Shown: in pieces, positions 27,518-33,561 of the stretch
Numbering within the stretch: position 1 is the stretch's first letter
Layout of the letters: each line of letters opens with the position of its first letter
Source: Pseudaminobacter soli (ex Zhang et al. 2022)
GTDB taxonomy: Bacteria; Pseudomonadota; Alphaproteobacteria; Rhizobiales; Rhizobiaceae
NCBI RefSeq assembly: GCF_014595955.1
Contig: NZ_JABVCF010000002.1
Location: 248,001-312,000 of the forward strand
DNA: 64,000 bases
Direction: 5' to 3'
The notes under the pieces: model-generated
What the model was told of the DNA's origin: nothing
The model's database searches: none
What the model saw: only the letters and a program-made list of their open reading frames with translations
Made by a program: the position numbers and the translations under genes

Positions 27518-27928
27518 TCACCCGACCATGAAGAAGACGGCCCACACGACGATGGTGAGCAGCACCGCGCCAACGAGCGTTGCCCAGGCGAGCATGGAAG
27601 CGTTGTGCTTCTCGAGCCCGGTGCCCGTGTCCCAGATCAGATGCCGGACCCCGCCCAGCATGTGGACGAACAGCGCCAGGGTGAAGCCGAACAGTACGAG
27701 CAGGCCAAACCAAGAGCCGACGATGCGGTCGACGAAGGCGAAATACCGCTCCGAAGTCGCCGCCGCGATCAACCACCAGGCGACCAGCAGCGCGCCGACA
27801 TAGAGCGTGCCCCCGGTGACGCGATGCAGGATCGACATCGTCATGGTGATGGGCCAGCGATAGACCGTCAGGTGCGGCGACAGAGGCCGTGGGTTGGGCG
27901 AAGGGCGGGTGGCTGGTGATTGGCTCAT
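27518..27928 (-). CDS. sdhC: Succinate dehydrogenase cytochrome b556 subunit
   Basis: The protein is 136 residues. [26 protein letters not shown] is the SdhC N-terminal signature with the quinone-site Ser and Arg, and [12 protein letters not shown] contains the heme-ligand His89. Three membrane helices follow. It is the first gene of sdhCDA-sulfotransferase-sdhB. GGGGGAG sits close before ATG 27928. Confidence 0.95.
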
Positions 27929-28226: not shown

Positions 28227-28296
28227 ATTAACCATGATCATGGATTTTCGGCAGAGAAGAGAGTGACTCTGTTAACTTTGGTTAAGAAATGGTTAA
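28227..28296 (+). promoter_or_regulatory. CtrA-like binding motifs upstream of the secreted-protein gene
   Basis: A full TTAA-N7-TTAA motif (28282-28296), a TTAA-N6-TTAA at 28272-28285 overlapping it, and a TTAACCAT half-site at 28227-28234 lie within 115 bp of the next start codon. CtrA is the cell-cycle response regulator of alphaproteobacteria and its consensus is TTAA-N7-TTAA. Motif match only. Confidence 0.6.
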
Positions 28297-28340
28297 TTTC
28301 GCAATCGAGGCAGGATTCGGCCTCGAACGGAGGAGCGCAG

Positions 28341-28688
28341 ATGCGTCTCGTGGAAACGGTTCTTTCGGCATCGTTCATCGGCGCGCTACTTGCGGCTGCA
28401 GCCCTGTCCCCTGCGTCGGCACAGAGCCGCGACTATGTCTATGCGGACACCTTCGGAAACCTGATCATCGAGAGTGCGGCGGGCTACAAGCGCATCCTCG
28501 TTGGCCGGGCAGAGGATGCCGAGCGTGCGTTCGGCCATATGCCAGACAGAGGAGCCGATCCCGCTCCTGGTGCATCGATGGCACCGCCTGCGGATTGCTT
28601 TCGCCCCGCTTTTCTCGTGAAGGGCCGCGGCTACATGTACGGTTTCGACCAGGGTGTAATTCCGCCTCTGGGCGCTCCCTGCCTCTAA
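28341..28688 (+). CDS. Small secreted protein of unknown function
   Basis: The protein is 115 residues. A typical signal peptide (MRLVETVLSASFIGALLAAAALSPASAQ, cleavage after about residue 28) precedes a mature region with two cysteines, C86 and C114, possibly a disulfide. I do not recognise a domain. GGAGGAG is 6-7 nt before the ATG. It follows the CtrA-like motifs and may start a transcript with the next two genes, the gap being 105 bp. Confidence 0.75.
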   Translation: MRLVETVLSASFIGALLAAAALSPASAQSRDYVYADTFGNLIIESAAGYKRILVGRAEDAERAFGHMPDRGADPAPGASMAPPADCFRPAFLVKGRGYMYGFDQGVIPPLGAPCL

Positions 28689-28793
28689 GAAGCCCTCCCA
28701 CTCGTACGCCATGATGGAGGCCGTCCGGCCCTCTTTCCGTCATCTTTGTCCGGCCATCTCGACAGGGTGGGCGAGAGGAGCGGTCAATCACGC

Positions 28794-30143
28794 ATGAGTC
28801 ACGCGGCCCAGTCACGCCGGCTGAAGGAACACCTCGCCGGCCTCGAGACCATGACGCGCTTCGTTCTGGCGACCCTGGCGCTGGCGAGCGGCGTCTATAC
28901 CTATCTCGGCGTGCGCAGCCTGCTCGACGGCTCGGCGTCCATCGTGTTCTTCGCCGCGATCATCTATTCGGCGTCCGTTTCCGTCGCAATGTATGGCTTC
29001 TGGACCTACCTGATCCGGTTCCTTCCGGAGATGCGCGACGGCGGCTCCCGATTGGCGCTGGTCGGCATCATGGGTGTCGGCTGCGCGATGATCATCGCCA
29101 TGTCGTCCTGGCTGAATGCGGCGGCGCTGGCCGGGTCGGCCGCGGTCGAGCAGCATCTGGCCATTACGCTGGAGGACTACACCGCCGATCTCGATCAGGC
29201 GCACGGTAACGCATTGGGCGCGCTCTCGCTGCTGCCCGACATCCAGCGGGCGGGCGAGCGCTTTGCAAGGCTCGCCGCTGACGAGCAGAAGTCCGGAGCG
29301 CTGACGGGAACGTCCGGTTCGGGCAGCGTCGTCCAACTCCTCAGCCAGATGTCGGCCCAGATGAAGGAACTGGAGGCGACCATCCAGGCTTCGCGCGAGC
29401 CGATCCAGAAGGCGTTCGAGGAAGGCCAGAAGCACCTTGCGACCATGCGCGGGCTCGTGTCCGCGCCGGGCGCGATCGAGCAGCGATCGGACCAGTTCGC
29501 AGCCGAGTCGGTGGCGCTGTCGGGGGTCATTGCTTCCCTCGAACAGACCTCGATCGCTGCATCCGTGAATCGCGCGGCGGCCGACCTCTCGCTGGGCTTC
29601 ATCGCGCCGGTGGCCGATGCCGGCACGGCGGATCTGGCTGGCCGCCAGGATCAGGTGATGGCGACTATCCGCGGGTCGGTCGCGGCGCAATCCAAGGCTT
29701 TGGCCGACGCCGCCGCGGAGATCCTTGAACAGCCCAAGGTCGCCGAGCGTCGATACGTGCCCTTAACCTCCGCGGAAGCGGTGCTGCGCTATGCCGGCGA
29801 CTTCATTCCAAGCTGGGCAGGCGCCATCTCGATCGACCTCCTTCCTGCCGTACTCGTCGGGATCATGGCGGTCGTCCATGCAGCCATGCGCCGGGGCGAG
29901 GACGAGATGGAGGAAGCCGACCGGATCACCGCGGGCGACATGCTGCGCTCCATGAAGTACAACGAACTGATCGCAGCGCGCCGGGCCGGCTTTGATGCGG
30001 CGCCCGCGCCGGCTGATGGTTTGGTTGAAGTGCCGGCGCCGCCGGTCCCGGCCTCGCCGGCGCGTCCGGAGGTCGCGAAGCCCGCCGGGGCGGAGAACGT
30101 GACGCCGCTTTCGCTTTCGGAGCGCAAACGGGCCGACCCATGA
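28794..30143 (+). CDS. Membrane protein with long helical domain, partner of the ClpP-like protease
   Basis: The protein is 449 residues and I do not recognise it. Predicted layout by eye: membrane helices at about 21-40, 50-74 and 87-115, a long Ala/Glu/Gln-rich helical region (about 117-330) that could form coiled coils, a fourth helix at 347-366, then a charged and Pro-rich C-terminal tail. ATG 28794 is assumed; a longer in-frame start at 28746 exists. The stop overlaps the protease gene start as ATGA, so the two products are made together and may act as a complex. Confidence 0.7.
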   Translation: MSHAAQSRRLKEHLAGLETMTRFVLATLALASGVYTYLGVRSLLDGSASIVFFAAIIYSASVSVAMYGFWTYLIRFLPEMRDGGSRLALVGIMGVGCAMIIAMSSWLNAAALAGSAAVEQHLAITLEDYTADLDQAHGNALGALSLLPDIQRAGERFARLAADEQKSGALTGTSGSGSVVQLLSQMSAQMKELEATIQASREPIQKAFEEGQKHLATMRGLVSAPGAIEQRSDQFAAESVALSGVIASLEQTSIAASVNRAAADLSLGFIAPVADAGTADLAGRQDQVMATIRGSVAAQSKALADAAAEILEQPKVAERRYVPLTSAEAVLRYAGDFIPSWAGAISIDLLPAVLVGIMAVVHAAMRRGEDEMEEADRITAGDMLRSMKYNELIAARRAGFDAAPAPADGLVEVPAPPVPASPARPEVAKPAGAENVTPLSLSERKRADP

Positions 30144-31003
30144 CCCTGCCGGGCGAAGATCCCCGTGCCGGAGGGCAGCGAAGGTCCGCCGGAGTGGCCG
30201 GCGGGCTTGTGCGGTATCTATCAAGGTTCGACGACGGCCAGGTGATCCGCTGGGCGTTTCGCGGCCTGCTGATCGGCGCAATCGGCGTCGTCGCTCTCGA
30301 TCTGCGCGATCTTATGCAGCACGATGACTGGGACCCTGCCGGAGTGATGTCGCCATCCGACCCGCAGCCGGTGCTCCCGCCCGCGGTGGAAATCAGTACT
30401 CCGACGCAATCGAGCAACGATCCCCGTCCCTATGTGACGACCGACGAGGGCGAGCTTGCAAGGCCCATGGTCTTCATGCTGCAGCCCGGCGGACGGCTTC
30501 AGGCCCAGGGCACGATCGTTCCGGGAACGGCTGAGCGGTTCGGCGCCGAACTCTCGCAGCGCGGCGAGTATGTCCGCGTCGTCTCGCTGAACTCGCCGGG
30601 CGGGTCTCTGGAAGACGCAATGGCCATGGCGCGCCTTGTCCGCGAACGCGGTCTTGGTACCGAGGTAGCCGACGGCGCGCTCTGCGCCTCCTCCTGTCCT
30701 CTGGTGATGGCCGGCGGCAAACAGCGAACGGCGGGGCCAAAGGCAGCCATCGGCGTCCATCAGTTCTATGCCGCCAGCCCGACCGAAACAGGTCCCGCAC
30801 AGGTCATGGCGGACGCGCAGGCGACCACGGCTCGCATCTCCCGGCATCTCCAGGCAATGGGGGTGGATCCGGCTCTGTGGCTGCATGCGCTCGATACGCC
30901 GCCGCGGGCCCTCTACTACCTGTCCGCGGCGGAGCTCTCCGAATACCGCATGGTCACCGACGGGCATAAGTCGGCTTCCAAGAAGTCGGCCAAGGTCGAT
31001 TAG
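30140..31003 (+). CDS. Membrane-anchored ClpP/SppA-like serine protease
   Basis: The protein is 287 residues. One membrane helix at about 41-56 is followed by a Pro-rich linker and a ClpP/crotonase-type domain: RVVSLNSPGGSLEDAMAMA (oxyanion loop, NSPGGS at 151-156), GALCASSCPLVMAGGKQR (nucleophile Ser184 or Ser185) and AAIGVHQFY (His207). This matches periplasmic ClpP-like proteins of alphaproteobacteria. Substrate unknown. It overlaps the upstream membrane-protein gene by 4 nt and the convergent GGDEF gene by 4 nt. Confidence 0.8.
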   Translation: MTLPGEDPRAGGQRRSAGVAGGLVRYLSRFDDGQVIRWAFRGLLIGAIGVVALDLRDLMQHDDWDPAGVMSPSDPQPVLPPAVEISTPTQSSNDPRPYVTTDEGELARPMVFMLQPGGRLQAQGTIVPGTAERFGAELSQRGEYVRVVSLNSPGGSLEDAMAMARLVRERGLGTEVADGALCASSCPLVMAGGKQRTAGPKAAIGVHQFYAASPTETGPAQVMADAQATTARISRHLQAMGVDPALWLHALDTPPRALYYLSAAELSEYRMVTDGHKSASKKSAKVD

Positions 31004-32205
31004 GCGATGTCCTTGCCAAGGAACGGCACGGCTGCCACTTCGTCCGCTACATAGAGCTTAGCCATGCGCACGCAATCGCGGCCGGCTCTCTTGGCGGCAT
31101 AAAGCGCCATATCGGCACGCGAGCTCAACGCCGCCAGATCCTCAGAGCCGATCAGTTCCGCAACGCCGAAGCTAGCCGTGAATCGGACGTTCTCGGGAAG
31201 ACCTTTCACCGAGAGGGCCGAGAAGGCGCTTCGGAGACCCTCTGCATAAAGGCGGGCCGTGGCGAGGTTGGAGCCGGGGAGCAGGATGGCGAACTCCTCG
31301 CCCCCGAGCCGGGCCGCCACCTGGCTGCTGCTCGCCGTCTTTAGCAATCCTGCGAGTGCCTCGATGACCCGGTCGCCTACAGCATGGCCGTAGGTGTCGT
31401 TGACCGACTTGAAATGATCGAGATCGACTACGACGAGCGAACTCGGAAGGCCTCTCGCCAGGCATCTCTCCAGTGCCGCTGCGCCATGACGCTCAAAACC
31501 GCCACGATTCAGCAGACCAGAAAGCGTGTCCATTTCGGAACGCTTCGTCGCCTCCAGGACAATGTCGCGCACCAGCATCAGCAGCGTCAGCAGTGCGACC
31601 GCAAGGCCGAACACCGTTCCGAGCGTCTGGGAAATCAGGGCGTAATTTGTATCGAGGTAATCCCGGATCGTTGCGCCTGTCCCCCCGGCAAGGGTGAGGA
31701 AAAAGGCCTTGGAAAGGAAATGCAGGGCGCTCGCGGCAAGGACGGATTGAAGGATGATGTCCAGGCGCGTCTGATATCGGGCCCTTCCGATGATCACGAC
31801 GCCGATGCCCTGCATAACGAAGTAGGGACTCTGATAGGCCAGCATGCGCCAGACTGAGGTGCGCGGCAGGTCCTGAATGGCTGCGCACAAGATCACAGAG
31901 GCAATGAACACCACACCCATCTGCGTCCAAGGGACATTGACGTGGTGTTTCAGCGCCAGTCCAACGTTGAAGGCCGCCAGGGCAGCGAGAAAGACGGAGA
32001 ATGAGAACACCGCCATCGCCGGCCCGCCCACGAATGCGTAGATGACGAACTCGACGATGAAGTAGGCAACAGCGGTCAGGTAGGCGGTGGCGAACCAGCG
32101 CGGCGCCTCGTTCCTCGAATCGAAAACGGCAGCCGTGACGAAGGCAGAGGCGAGAAGGCCGGCCACTGCAATATTGATCGCAAGGATGAAGCCTGCTCCG
32201 CTCAT
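31000..32205 (-). CDS. Membrane diguanylate cyclase (GGDEF)
   Basis: The protein is 401 residues. About six membrane helices (roughly 1-215) replace a sensor domain and are followed by a GGDEF domain with DLDHFKSVNDTYGHAVGDR and the active-site RLGGEEF, so it should make cyclic di-GMP from GTP. No RxxD inhibitory site is visible before the active site (sequence ASSSQVAARLGGEEF). Convergent with the protease gene. Confidence 0.88.
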   Translation of the reverse strand: MSGAGFILAINIAVAGLLASAFVTAAVFDSRNEAPRWFATAYLTAVAYFIVEFVIYAFVGGPAMAVFSFSVFLAALAAFNVGLALKHHVNVPWTQMGVVFIASVILCAAIQDLPRTSVWRMLAYQSPYFVMQGIGVVIIGRARYQTRLDIILQSVLAASALHFLSKAFFLTLAGGTGATIRDYLDTNYALISQTLGTVFGLAVALLTLLMLVRDIVLEATKRSEMDTLSGLLNRGGFERHGAAALERCLARGLPSSLVVVDLDHFKSVNDTYGHAVGDRVIEALAGLLKTASSSQVAARLGGEEFAILLPGSNLATARLYAEGLRSAFSALSVKGLPENVRFTASFGVAELIGSEDLAALSSRADMALYAAKRAGRDCVRMAKLYVADEVAAVPFLGKDIA

Positions 32206-32367: not shown

Positions 32368-33561
32368 CTATGCCGCGGCGTGCAGCAGCATGCCCGCAGC
32401 AGGCCGCAGGTAGGTAACGCGGACCCTGTCGCGGCCCGCACGCTTGGCCTGCATCAGCGCCTCGTCGGCACGCTCGATCAAGGCGTTGAGATCTTCGCCA
32501 TTCACCCTTTCGGCCACGCCGAAACTGCAGGTCAGGGGAACTTGGTGATCAGCGAACGCCTCCGGGGCCACAGCCGAGAGGCCGGTACGGACACTTTCGG
32601 CAAACAGGCGCGCTCCTGCGAGGTCGCAGTTCGGCAGGAGCACAGCGAACTCTTCGCCGCCGATGCGGGCGACGAGCGATTCCTTGTCCGCTCCATGCTG
32701 CCTGAGAAGACGAGCAAAGGCCACGATCGCGGCATCGCCTGCCGCGTGGCCATAGGTATCGTTTATCCGTTTGAAATGATCGAGGTCGGCCAGCACGAGA
32801 CCGATGGCCGACGGACTCCGCTTGGATGGTGAGAAAAAGGGTGGGGCCTTTTCGGCGAGGCCCCGGCGGTTGAGGAGCCCCGAAAGAGGATCGGTCCGGG
32901 AGTCGGCCTGCAGCGACCGAACCACATCGAGCGTAGCCGATCCGAACAGGCAGAATGCTAGAACGATGGCAACCAGCGCCTGGGACAGTAGCGCGCTGGT
33001 CCAATATACGGACTGATGGAAGCCGGAGTAGCTCACATCAGGACCGTCGATCCACAATGCGAGGAGGGTGCGGGCGAGGAAGTTGAGGCCGGATAGCAGC
33101 GCCAGCACGAAGACGATCGTCTCGATTGTTCCGTTGCGGCTCACCGGGCGCAGCTCTGCCGCCGCGACGAGACTGATCCCGCCCAGCGCAACATTGAGCG
33201 CATAGACGCGCCAGATGAGATTGGGCTCTATGAACATGAACCAGAAGAACGAGGCGATTCCTGCTGCAGACAAAAGGCCGAGAACGACGAAGGGAACCCT
33301 TCGCCCGTAGCCCGCTATGATCGCGCCGGATATGCAGCAGCAGCCGACCAGGAAAGCTGTGCATGAAAGCATCCGGCTCAGCGCGAAGCCGAACGGGCTG
33401 ATGATCTGCATCAGGAAGCCAAGGGCGGTGCAGGCATAGCCGAGCGCCAGGAACGCCAGATAGCGGCGCTGACGCTGGTAGAGCCACAGCGCCAGGAATG
33501 CCGCCGACAAGGCGAGCGCAATCCCGTGATTGAGCAGCGCGATGAAATGCCCGGACTGCAA
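32368..33561 (-). CDS. Second membrane diguanylate cyclase (GGDEF)
   Basis: The protein is 397 residues, with about six to seven membrane helices in the first 220 residues, then GGDEF motifs DLDHFKRINDTYGHAAGD and RIGGEEFAVLLP. It lacks a recognisable RxxD I-site. It is in tandem with the neighbour at 31000-32205, and the two have similar architecture, suggesting an old duplication. The 162-bp gap between them has no gene I can support. Confidence 0.88.
   Translation of the reverse strand: MQSGHFIALLNHGIALALSAAFLALWLYQRQRRYLAFLALGYACTALGFLMQIISPFGFALSRMLSCTAFLVGCCCISGAIIAGYGRRVPFVVLGLLSAAGIASFFWFMFIEPNLIWRVYALNVALGGISLVAAAELRPVSRNGTIETIVFVLALLSGLNFLARTLLALWIDGPDVSYSGFHQSVYWTSALLSQALVAIVLAFCLFGSATLDVVRSLQADSRTDPLSGLLNRRGLAEKAPPFFSPSKRSPSAIGLVLADLDHFKRINDTYGHAAGDAAIVAFARLLRQHGADKESLVARIGGEEFAVLLPNCDLAGARLFAESVRTGLSAVAPEAFADHQVPLTCSFGVAERVNGEDLNALIERADEALMQAKRAGRDRVRVTYLRPAAGMLLHAAA

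Follow-up and report, generated by a model that had tools for sequence, protein, structure and literature searches.

A CtrA-type promoter in front of a membrane protein and ClpP-fold protease gene pair in Pseudaminobacter soli and related Hyphomicrobiales

Described relatives of the locus

Membrane proteases of the ClpP class are known from the NfeD/stomatin-type modules, in which such a protease, endowed in NfeD with a Ser-Lys dyad, is accompanied by a scaffold of the SPFH type. The alphaproteobacterial cell cycle is under the direction of the regulator CtrA, which is known to be linked to proteolysis through the cytoplasmic ClpXP route. We describe here a locus from the genome of Pseudaminobacter soli (6.1 Mb in 51 contigs), in which a promoter region with CtrA-type motifs precedes three same-strand open reading frames (ORFs), encoding a small secreted protein, an inner-membrane protein and a membrane-anchored, protease-like protein with a ClpP fold. 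The locus lies in a stretch of 64,000 nucleotides, called the window below, to whose first letter all positions refer. Of the loci returned by our searches, the closest named ones come from Mesorhizobium ephedrae, M. camelthorni and M. alhagi (very near records are perhaps missing from this set).

A ClpP-class membrane protease encoded together with a membrane partner is a known kind of arrangement, as the NfeD/SPFH modules are likewise operons of a scaffold-like membrane protein and a ClpP-class protease. The two proteins considered here nevertheless differ from their counterparts: the membrane protein has no SPFH match in Pfam or NCBIfam, and the protease lacks an invariant Lys for a dyad. 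With the ClpP peptidase (PF00574) the protease shares the fold (in the predicted model), the S-P-G-G loop and the positions of the nucleophile Ser and the catalytic His, but it is membrane-anchored and predicted to be periplasmic, has Leu in place of Asp and a conserved Cys pair around the Ser, and is partnered genetically with a membrane protein rather than with a Clp ATPase.

The ortholog of the protease in Sinorhizobium meliloti is, judging by gene order and by the family described for it, SMb20360, a member of the Clp-protease superfamily that figures in a nodule-expression screen; a GUS fusion was on in nodules and off in free-living cells, and disruption of the gene left the bacterium symbiotically normal (PMC3462710; BMC Microbiology 2012). 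The same paper cites a signature-tagged mutant that proved highly competitive when stressed by salt and detergent, a phenotype that fits a role in the envelope. The passages of PMC3462710 on SMb20360 mention neither an adjacent membrane protein nor CtrA, and give a length of 243 residues, compared with 261 annotated in strain Ak57. An earlier note on this DNA, made from its letters alone, had called the system unrecognised. This does not wholly hold for the protease, whose ortholog is in print. Among the literature matches listed we found no account of the operon, the membrane-protein family, the active-site change or the CtrA-type promoter, SMb20360 in PMC3462710 aside. SMb20359, the tag we infer for the S. 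meliloti membrane protein, was likewise without mention among the papers returned by one of the literature searches.

CtrA-type sites at the promoter

Three CtrA-type elements had been reported by the earlier note in front of the three ORFs, and all of them were found where it placed them on the plus strand: the ungapped or half-site variant TTAACCAT (28228..28235), and, 54 bp further downstream, the full site TTAA-N7-TTAA (28282..28296; the N7 pair), which is overlapped by a variant pair TTAA-N6-TTAA (28272..28285). These elements match the CtrA full site, the TTAACCAT variant and the functional N6 spacing set out in the passages of PMC6180460 that concern the site.

The conservation of the promoter was assessed in the 80 named loci closest to the window, out of at least 562 confirmed ones; these loci are related to one another. 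In 48 of the 80 loci, the first gene of the cluster has an exact N7 pair no more than 150 bp away, compared with none of 543 other genes from the same loci. When one mismatch was allowed, the corresponding counts were 70/80 and 19/543; the N6 pair was seen in 17 loci and in no control, and any TTAA in 77/80 targets and 82/543 controls. Three further loci have an N9 pair, and the spacings N3 to N5, N8 and N10 to N12 do not occur among the 80, while N11 and N12 pairs occur twice each among the controls. The controls were ORFs of at least 80 amino acids, called from third-position GC (GC3); they include genes internal to operons, and their upstream regions are often coding, so the difference would shrink if true promoters alone served as controls. 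The Fisher value of 1e-50 overstates the evidence as well, because the loci are related and some controls lie inside operons. Judging from these counts, the conserved N7 pair at the cluster promoter is not a product of chance.

The upstream half-site proved to be conserved in position, too. After eight loci lacking an exact N7 pair had been set aside from the 60 given, 43 of the remaining 52 promoters were found to have a TTAA half-site at 54-57 bp upstream from the N7 pair, and four to have one at 44-45 bp, distances that correspond to about five or four helical turns. In almost every case the half-site reads TTAACCAT or TTAACCAC. GANTC (CcrM) sites were tried as a further promoter feature and rejected as inconsistent, being present within 75 nucleotides of the N7 start in 16/52 promoters. 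By eye, GTGACA recurs in many promoters, where it replaces the N6 half some 10 bp ahead of the first TTAA in the N7 pair, and many have TGTCAAT after the half-site, the other strand of which resembles a TTGACA-like -35 element. No sigma-70 consensus promoter or intrinsic terminator was found between positions 27900 and 31200. In 17 of the 32 loci with the small gene, the start of the membrane-protein gene has a second TTAA no more than 60 bp away (30/543 controls), which in six of them reads TTAACC (5/543 controls); GTTAACCATG, in which it spans the start codon of the membrane protein, is an example. The window has no such second TTAA.

Within the window, the N7 pattern occurs once, with 0.04 copies expected (at least one copy was present in 4 of 100 shuffles), and TTAACCAT occurs twice, with 0.19 expected. 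Both TTAACCAT copies are at the cluster promoter, the second being the last TTAA of the pair read on the opposite strand. The N6+N7 triple is a single occurrence in the whole genome. Full sites number 31 genome-wide, compared with 12 for a reversed-pattern control, so that a full site alone is only moderately informative. Of the 30 others, 28 lie outside ORFs as called by the simple GC3 rule. A Pfam scan of 30 of the 34 ORFs beside full sites (L162:1102-1656:-, L168:2369-2749:+, L168:2783-3022:+ and L168:3125-3334:- were left out) revealed genes for MinC, FtsK, DUF1465 (the RcdA family), RcpC/CpaB, two L,D-transpeptidases, a penicillin-binding protein and several outer-membrane beta-barrels next to some of them, several of these being division and envelope genes; curli genes and one for a BTLCP protease are further neighbours. 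The S. meliloti CtrA regulon, as far as it is laid out in the main text of PMC4433202, similarly comprises envelope and hypothetical genes, with minCD as a direct target. The P. soli genome encodes a CtrA ortholog with 98% identity to the CtrA sequence used as query. Taken together, the conserved full site, the N6 variant, the half-site at a fixed distance and the division and envelope genes beside several other full sites provide computational support for the description of these motifs as CtrA-type. Elsewhere in the genome, four TTAA-N7-TTAA sites lie within about 1.7 kb (G000:C34:179164-180820), where the neighbouring ORFs are all small or uncertain.

The gene pair and its accessory gene

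The gene of the inner-membrane protein (449 amino acids; 28794..30143, plus strand) overlaps by 4 nucleotides with that of the protease-like protein (287 amino acids; 30140..31003, plus strand). The protease gene follows directly downstream of the membrane-protein gene in all 79 testable named loci (the contig of the 80th ends first), with the 4-nucleotide overlap in 47 of the 79, start codons having been picked by script. Among 151 genomes of the family, it is present in 58 of the 59 that have the membrane protein. The two genes thus constitute a near-obligate pair. The small gene (115 amino acids, with a signal-peptide-like start and a conserved C-terminal Cys; 28341..28688, plus strand) is a less constant companion, as it occurs in 32 of the 80 named loci. 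Of the 151 genomes, 22 possess all three genes, 36 the membrane protein and the protease, and 63 none; six have the small gene and the protease without the membrane protein (adjacent in five; G679 has a weak protease match on another contig), 22 the small gene alone, one the protease alone and one the membrane protein alone. The description of the locus as a three-gene cluster is therefore accurate here and in the 32 relatives, with a first gene that is no obligate member, and the expectation that the three genes would be conserved together was borne out for the membrane protein and the protease but not fully for the small gene, as this often stands alone.

The promoter box itself precedes a variety of gene line-ups: small-membrane-protease, small-protease, membrane-protease, protease alone and small alone. 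The N7 pair was found in front of the small gene in 20 of the 21 small-alone loci read (out of 22; G101 was left out), in the five loci with adjacent small and protease genes, and in front of the lone protease gene. The lone membrane-protein gene has no N7 pair upstream, and the next ORFs read as rimM and trmD. Because one and the same box precedes such varied line-ups, we consider the promoter with envelope genes behind it to be the conserved unit, and the small gene to be a co-regulated neighbour. No family was found for the small protein in Pfam or NCBIfam; 22 of its 23 aligned members gave no Pfam match, and the remaining one a match at chance level (E = 0.023).

Alignments were built from 24 of the 25 membrane-protein loci (A1; the partial L029 was left out) and from the window together with 48/80 (A2), 59/79 (A3) and 22/32 (A4) sequences. 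Over the 24 sequences the membrane protein has a mean column identity of 62%. It is predicted to consist of about three N-terminal transmembrane (TM) segments, a helical domain of about 230 residues, TM4 (343-361) and a tail, predicted to be cytoplasmic, that ends in a conserved NVTPL-type motif. Three segments pass the hydropathy threshold; a fourth, at about 22-42, is suggested by helix prediction and conservation. There are three Lys/Arg among the 15 residues before TM3 and none among the 15 after it, and by the positive-inside rule the helical domain would be periplasmic, like the protease domain according to prediction. No match above cut-off was obtained in Pfam or NCBIfam. The model has long helices at moderate confidence (predicted local distance difference test, pLDDT, 72). 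The best Foldseek hit had E = 0.012, and the best profile match among sequences of the Protein Data Bank (PDB) had E = 0.099. The top VIA rows were designed four-helix bundles (Z 13.2-13.6), followed by axonemal, F-BAR/BAR and sensor domains (Z about 9-12); as these scores are at or below the level common for helical models, we claim no fold. The protein, which the earlier note had not recognised beyond its long helical domain, indeed has no clear family or fold match, and possibly belongs to an unlisted family.

The protease-like protein has one N-terminal hydrophobic segment (35-53) and a ClpP fold at 113-279, the latter evident in a model (pLDDT 83.5) that matches 9r2s (VIA Z 15.8; root mean square deviation 3.7 over 159 aligned residues) and 6iw7 (Foldseek E = 2.2e-7). 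The motifs S152PGG and C182ASSC186 and the residue H207 are conserved: in 78 sequences (the window and 77 of the 79 homologs, longer than 200 amino acids) S152, G154, G155, C182, S184, S185, C186 and H207 are invariant, and P153 and A183 are shared by 77 and 76, respectively. Ser184 and His207 align with the catalytic Ser and His of ClpP. Of the earlier description of an overlapping ClpP/SppA-like protease, the ClpP fold and the overlap are retained. Membership in the SppA/NfeD group was not adopted, as the 60 aligned sequences contain no invariant or nearly invariant Lys; 14 of the 60 have a weak match to NfeD1b_N (best E = 0.00045).

Beyond the family, the membrane protein was matched in 56 of 297 sampled genomes of the order (54 strong matches) and, besides the window's own, in eight of 289 sampled genomes of the class (four strong). 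In all four strong cases outside the order the protease gene is adjacent. Five loci (L030, on G023:C12, and L148-L151) hold distant relatives of the membrane protein, with 23-29% identity by tblastn (L151 by profile only), and no protease relative was found there within the stretch fetched. The membrane protein occurs in 139 plasmid records, chiefly of Sinorhizobium and Phaeobacter. In Phaeobacter gallaeciensis, the pair is carried by the 256-kb plasmid pP11_a, where it adjoins a gene for a lytic murein transglycosylase as well as a run of genes for STAS and ATP-binding proteins.

In the window, the promoter and the three ORFs are flanked on one side by a divergent gene (27518..27928, minus strand, start codon inferred), which we read as sdhC from its sequence and its sdh neighbours, and which lies outside the cluster but shares its intergenic region. 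Relatives of it are present in all 15 genomes searched. On the other side, two adjacent minus-strand genes (31003-32205 and 32371-33561), convergent with the cluster, encode membrane diguanylate cyclases; their GGDEF matches have E values of 2.5e-35 and 1.3e-38, and they resemble tandem paralogs.

Competing readings and the sign of control

Starting from the motif conservation, the co-conservation of the gene pair, the ClpP fold of the model and the invariant Ser and His, we hold with moderate confidence that the locus is a member of the predicted Hyphomicrobiales CtrA regulon, in which a scaffold-protease pair would clear envelope proteins at the phase of the cell cycle governed by CtrA. The core would be an inner-membrane protein with four TM segments and a long helical periplasmic domain, together with a membrane-anchored partner whose ClpP-fold domain would likewise face the periplasm. 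Most likely, the membrane protein would position or assemble the protease and deliver substrate to it, acting as its scaffold, adaptor or regulator, and would replace the Clp unfoldase in the ATP-free periplasm; a complex of the two may then trim or clear envelope proteins at the CtrA-defined phase. The small secreted protein would be an accessory, co-regulated envelope protein that is not required.

Several findings weigh against this account. On the side of the promoter, the exact N7 pair is absent from 32 of the 80 named loci, ten of which lack even a pair with one mismatch, and the S. meliloti promoter has just one exact TTAA half. Outside the Hyphomicrobiales, the gene pair is retained without a TTAA pair within 400 bp in 4/4 loci, so that CtrA control is not intrinsic to the membrane-protease module. 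Among the neighbours of N7 sites there are also non-obvious CtrA targets, namely regulators of the MarR and LacI types, ABC transporters, a phasin and a short-chain dehydrogenase. No tag beginning with SMb2 appears in the main text of Pini et al. 2015 (PMC4433202), which does not extend to the gene tables in its figures and supplement. On the side of the genes, the protease occurs without the membrane protein in 7 of 65 genomes and the membrane protein without the protease in 1 of 59. The pair is absent from 93 of the 151 family genomes (58 have both genes, one the membrane protein only, seven the protease only and 85 neither), and must thus be dispensable. Co-occurrence of the small gene with the protease is weak (28 of 49 genomes, Fisher p = 0.02, G715 not counted; with G715 the small gene is present in 50 of the 151). 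As to the proteins, TM1 (about 22-42) falls under the hydropathy threshold used, and the position aligned with the catalytic Asp of two ClpP chains is occupied by Leu258 in 78/78 proteases.

This last substitution also speaks for a different view, that CtrA regulates a protein with a ClpP fold that is catalytically dead or is a non-proteolytic subunit, the pair forming an envelope complex with a structural or signalling role. The window protein moreover scores below the Pfam gathering threshold (18.3 vs 20.2), and its best sequence match among solved structures is only ClpP, at E = 5e-7. A dead enzyme would, however, be expected to lose some of its active-site residues, and Ser184, His207 and six further motif residues (S152, G154, G155, C182, S185 and C186) are invariant in 78/78 sequences. 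Residue 252 is acidic in 77 of the 78 proteases and may stand in for the Asp of ClpP. We therefore consider the non-proteolytic alternative unlikely, and protease activity likely but not certain. The TTAA sites might also be genuine CtrA sites that act chiefly for the small gene or for sdhC and its divergent operon, with the membrane-protease pair carried along and not itself regulated by the cell cycle. The position of sdhC in the window would fit, as would an N7 pair upstream of sdhC in 2 of 14 other genomes (L219 and L221; G006 and G014) and the retention of the site by the small gene alone in 20/21 loci read. Yet G035 has its sdhC at a distance of about 50 kb, with no TTAA in the 500 bp upstream of it, and the cluster keeps both the half-site and the N7 pair, which speaks against the half-site being that of sdhC alone; and in 23 of the 48 named loci with the box, the small gene is missing and the box stands 23-30 nucleotides from the membrane-protein start. 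We consider such a reading rather improbable. The N7 pair in front of sdhC in those two genomes, taken on its own, hints that CtrA may touch the tricarboxylic acid cycle in some lineages. Finally, TTAA is a word of low complexity and CtrA binding is a prediction from motifs, so some other TTAA-reading regulator might use the sites. Against this, the spacing in the 80 promoters is specific (N7 in 48, N6 in 17 and N9 in three), the three elements match the published full site, TTAACCAT variant and N6 spacing (PMC6180460, in its passages on the site), and several N7 neighbours in the same genome are division and envelope genes; we regard this last reading as very improbable.

If CtrA does control the locus, the geometry of the promoters bears on the sign of that control. 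In Rhodobacter sphaeroides, CtrA-activated starts lie 23-24 nucleotides after the site, according to the passages of PMC6180460 on this point; applied here, this rule would put the start near position 28320, with a 21-nucleotide leader containing GGAGG, which is consistent with activation. The end of the N7 box is 44 nucleotides from the start codon here and 32-67 nucleotides in the 25 named loci having both the small gene and the N7 pair, distances that allow activation. Where the small gene is missing (23 named loci), the 23-30 nucleotides between the end of the box and the start codon of the membrane protein leave less space, and in the 12 such loci read they hold a Shine-Dalgarno-like stretch, which fits repression better. 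CtrA is thought to fall in bacteroids, and repression would then also fit the expression of SMb20360 in nodules and not in free-living cells, a link that is weak given the lone exact TTAA half of the S. meliloti promoter. A more elaborate version of the favoured account, which we put forward as speculative and doubtful, would have a cell-cycle-timed, ATP-independent periplasmic ClpP machine, in which a dedicated non-SPFH membrane scaffold with a periplasmic helical domain recruits and gates a membrane-anchored ClpP-fold protease with a non-canonical Ser-His(-Asp/Glu252) site. CtrA would switch it on in Mesorhizobium-type bacteria, and in those of the Rhizobium type would keep it off until the CtrA level drops, as it might in nodules.

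The conserved CtrA-type promoter and the near-constant pair behind it point to a little-studied envelope clean-up system linked to the cell cycle. This also suggests what function to seek in the strongly conserved membrane protein, for which no Pfam or NCBIfam family was matched. If the proposed account is true, envelope proteolysis would be coupled to the cell-cycle programme of the polar-growing Hyphomicrobiales, legume symbionts included.

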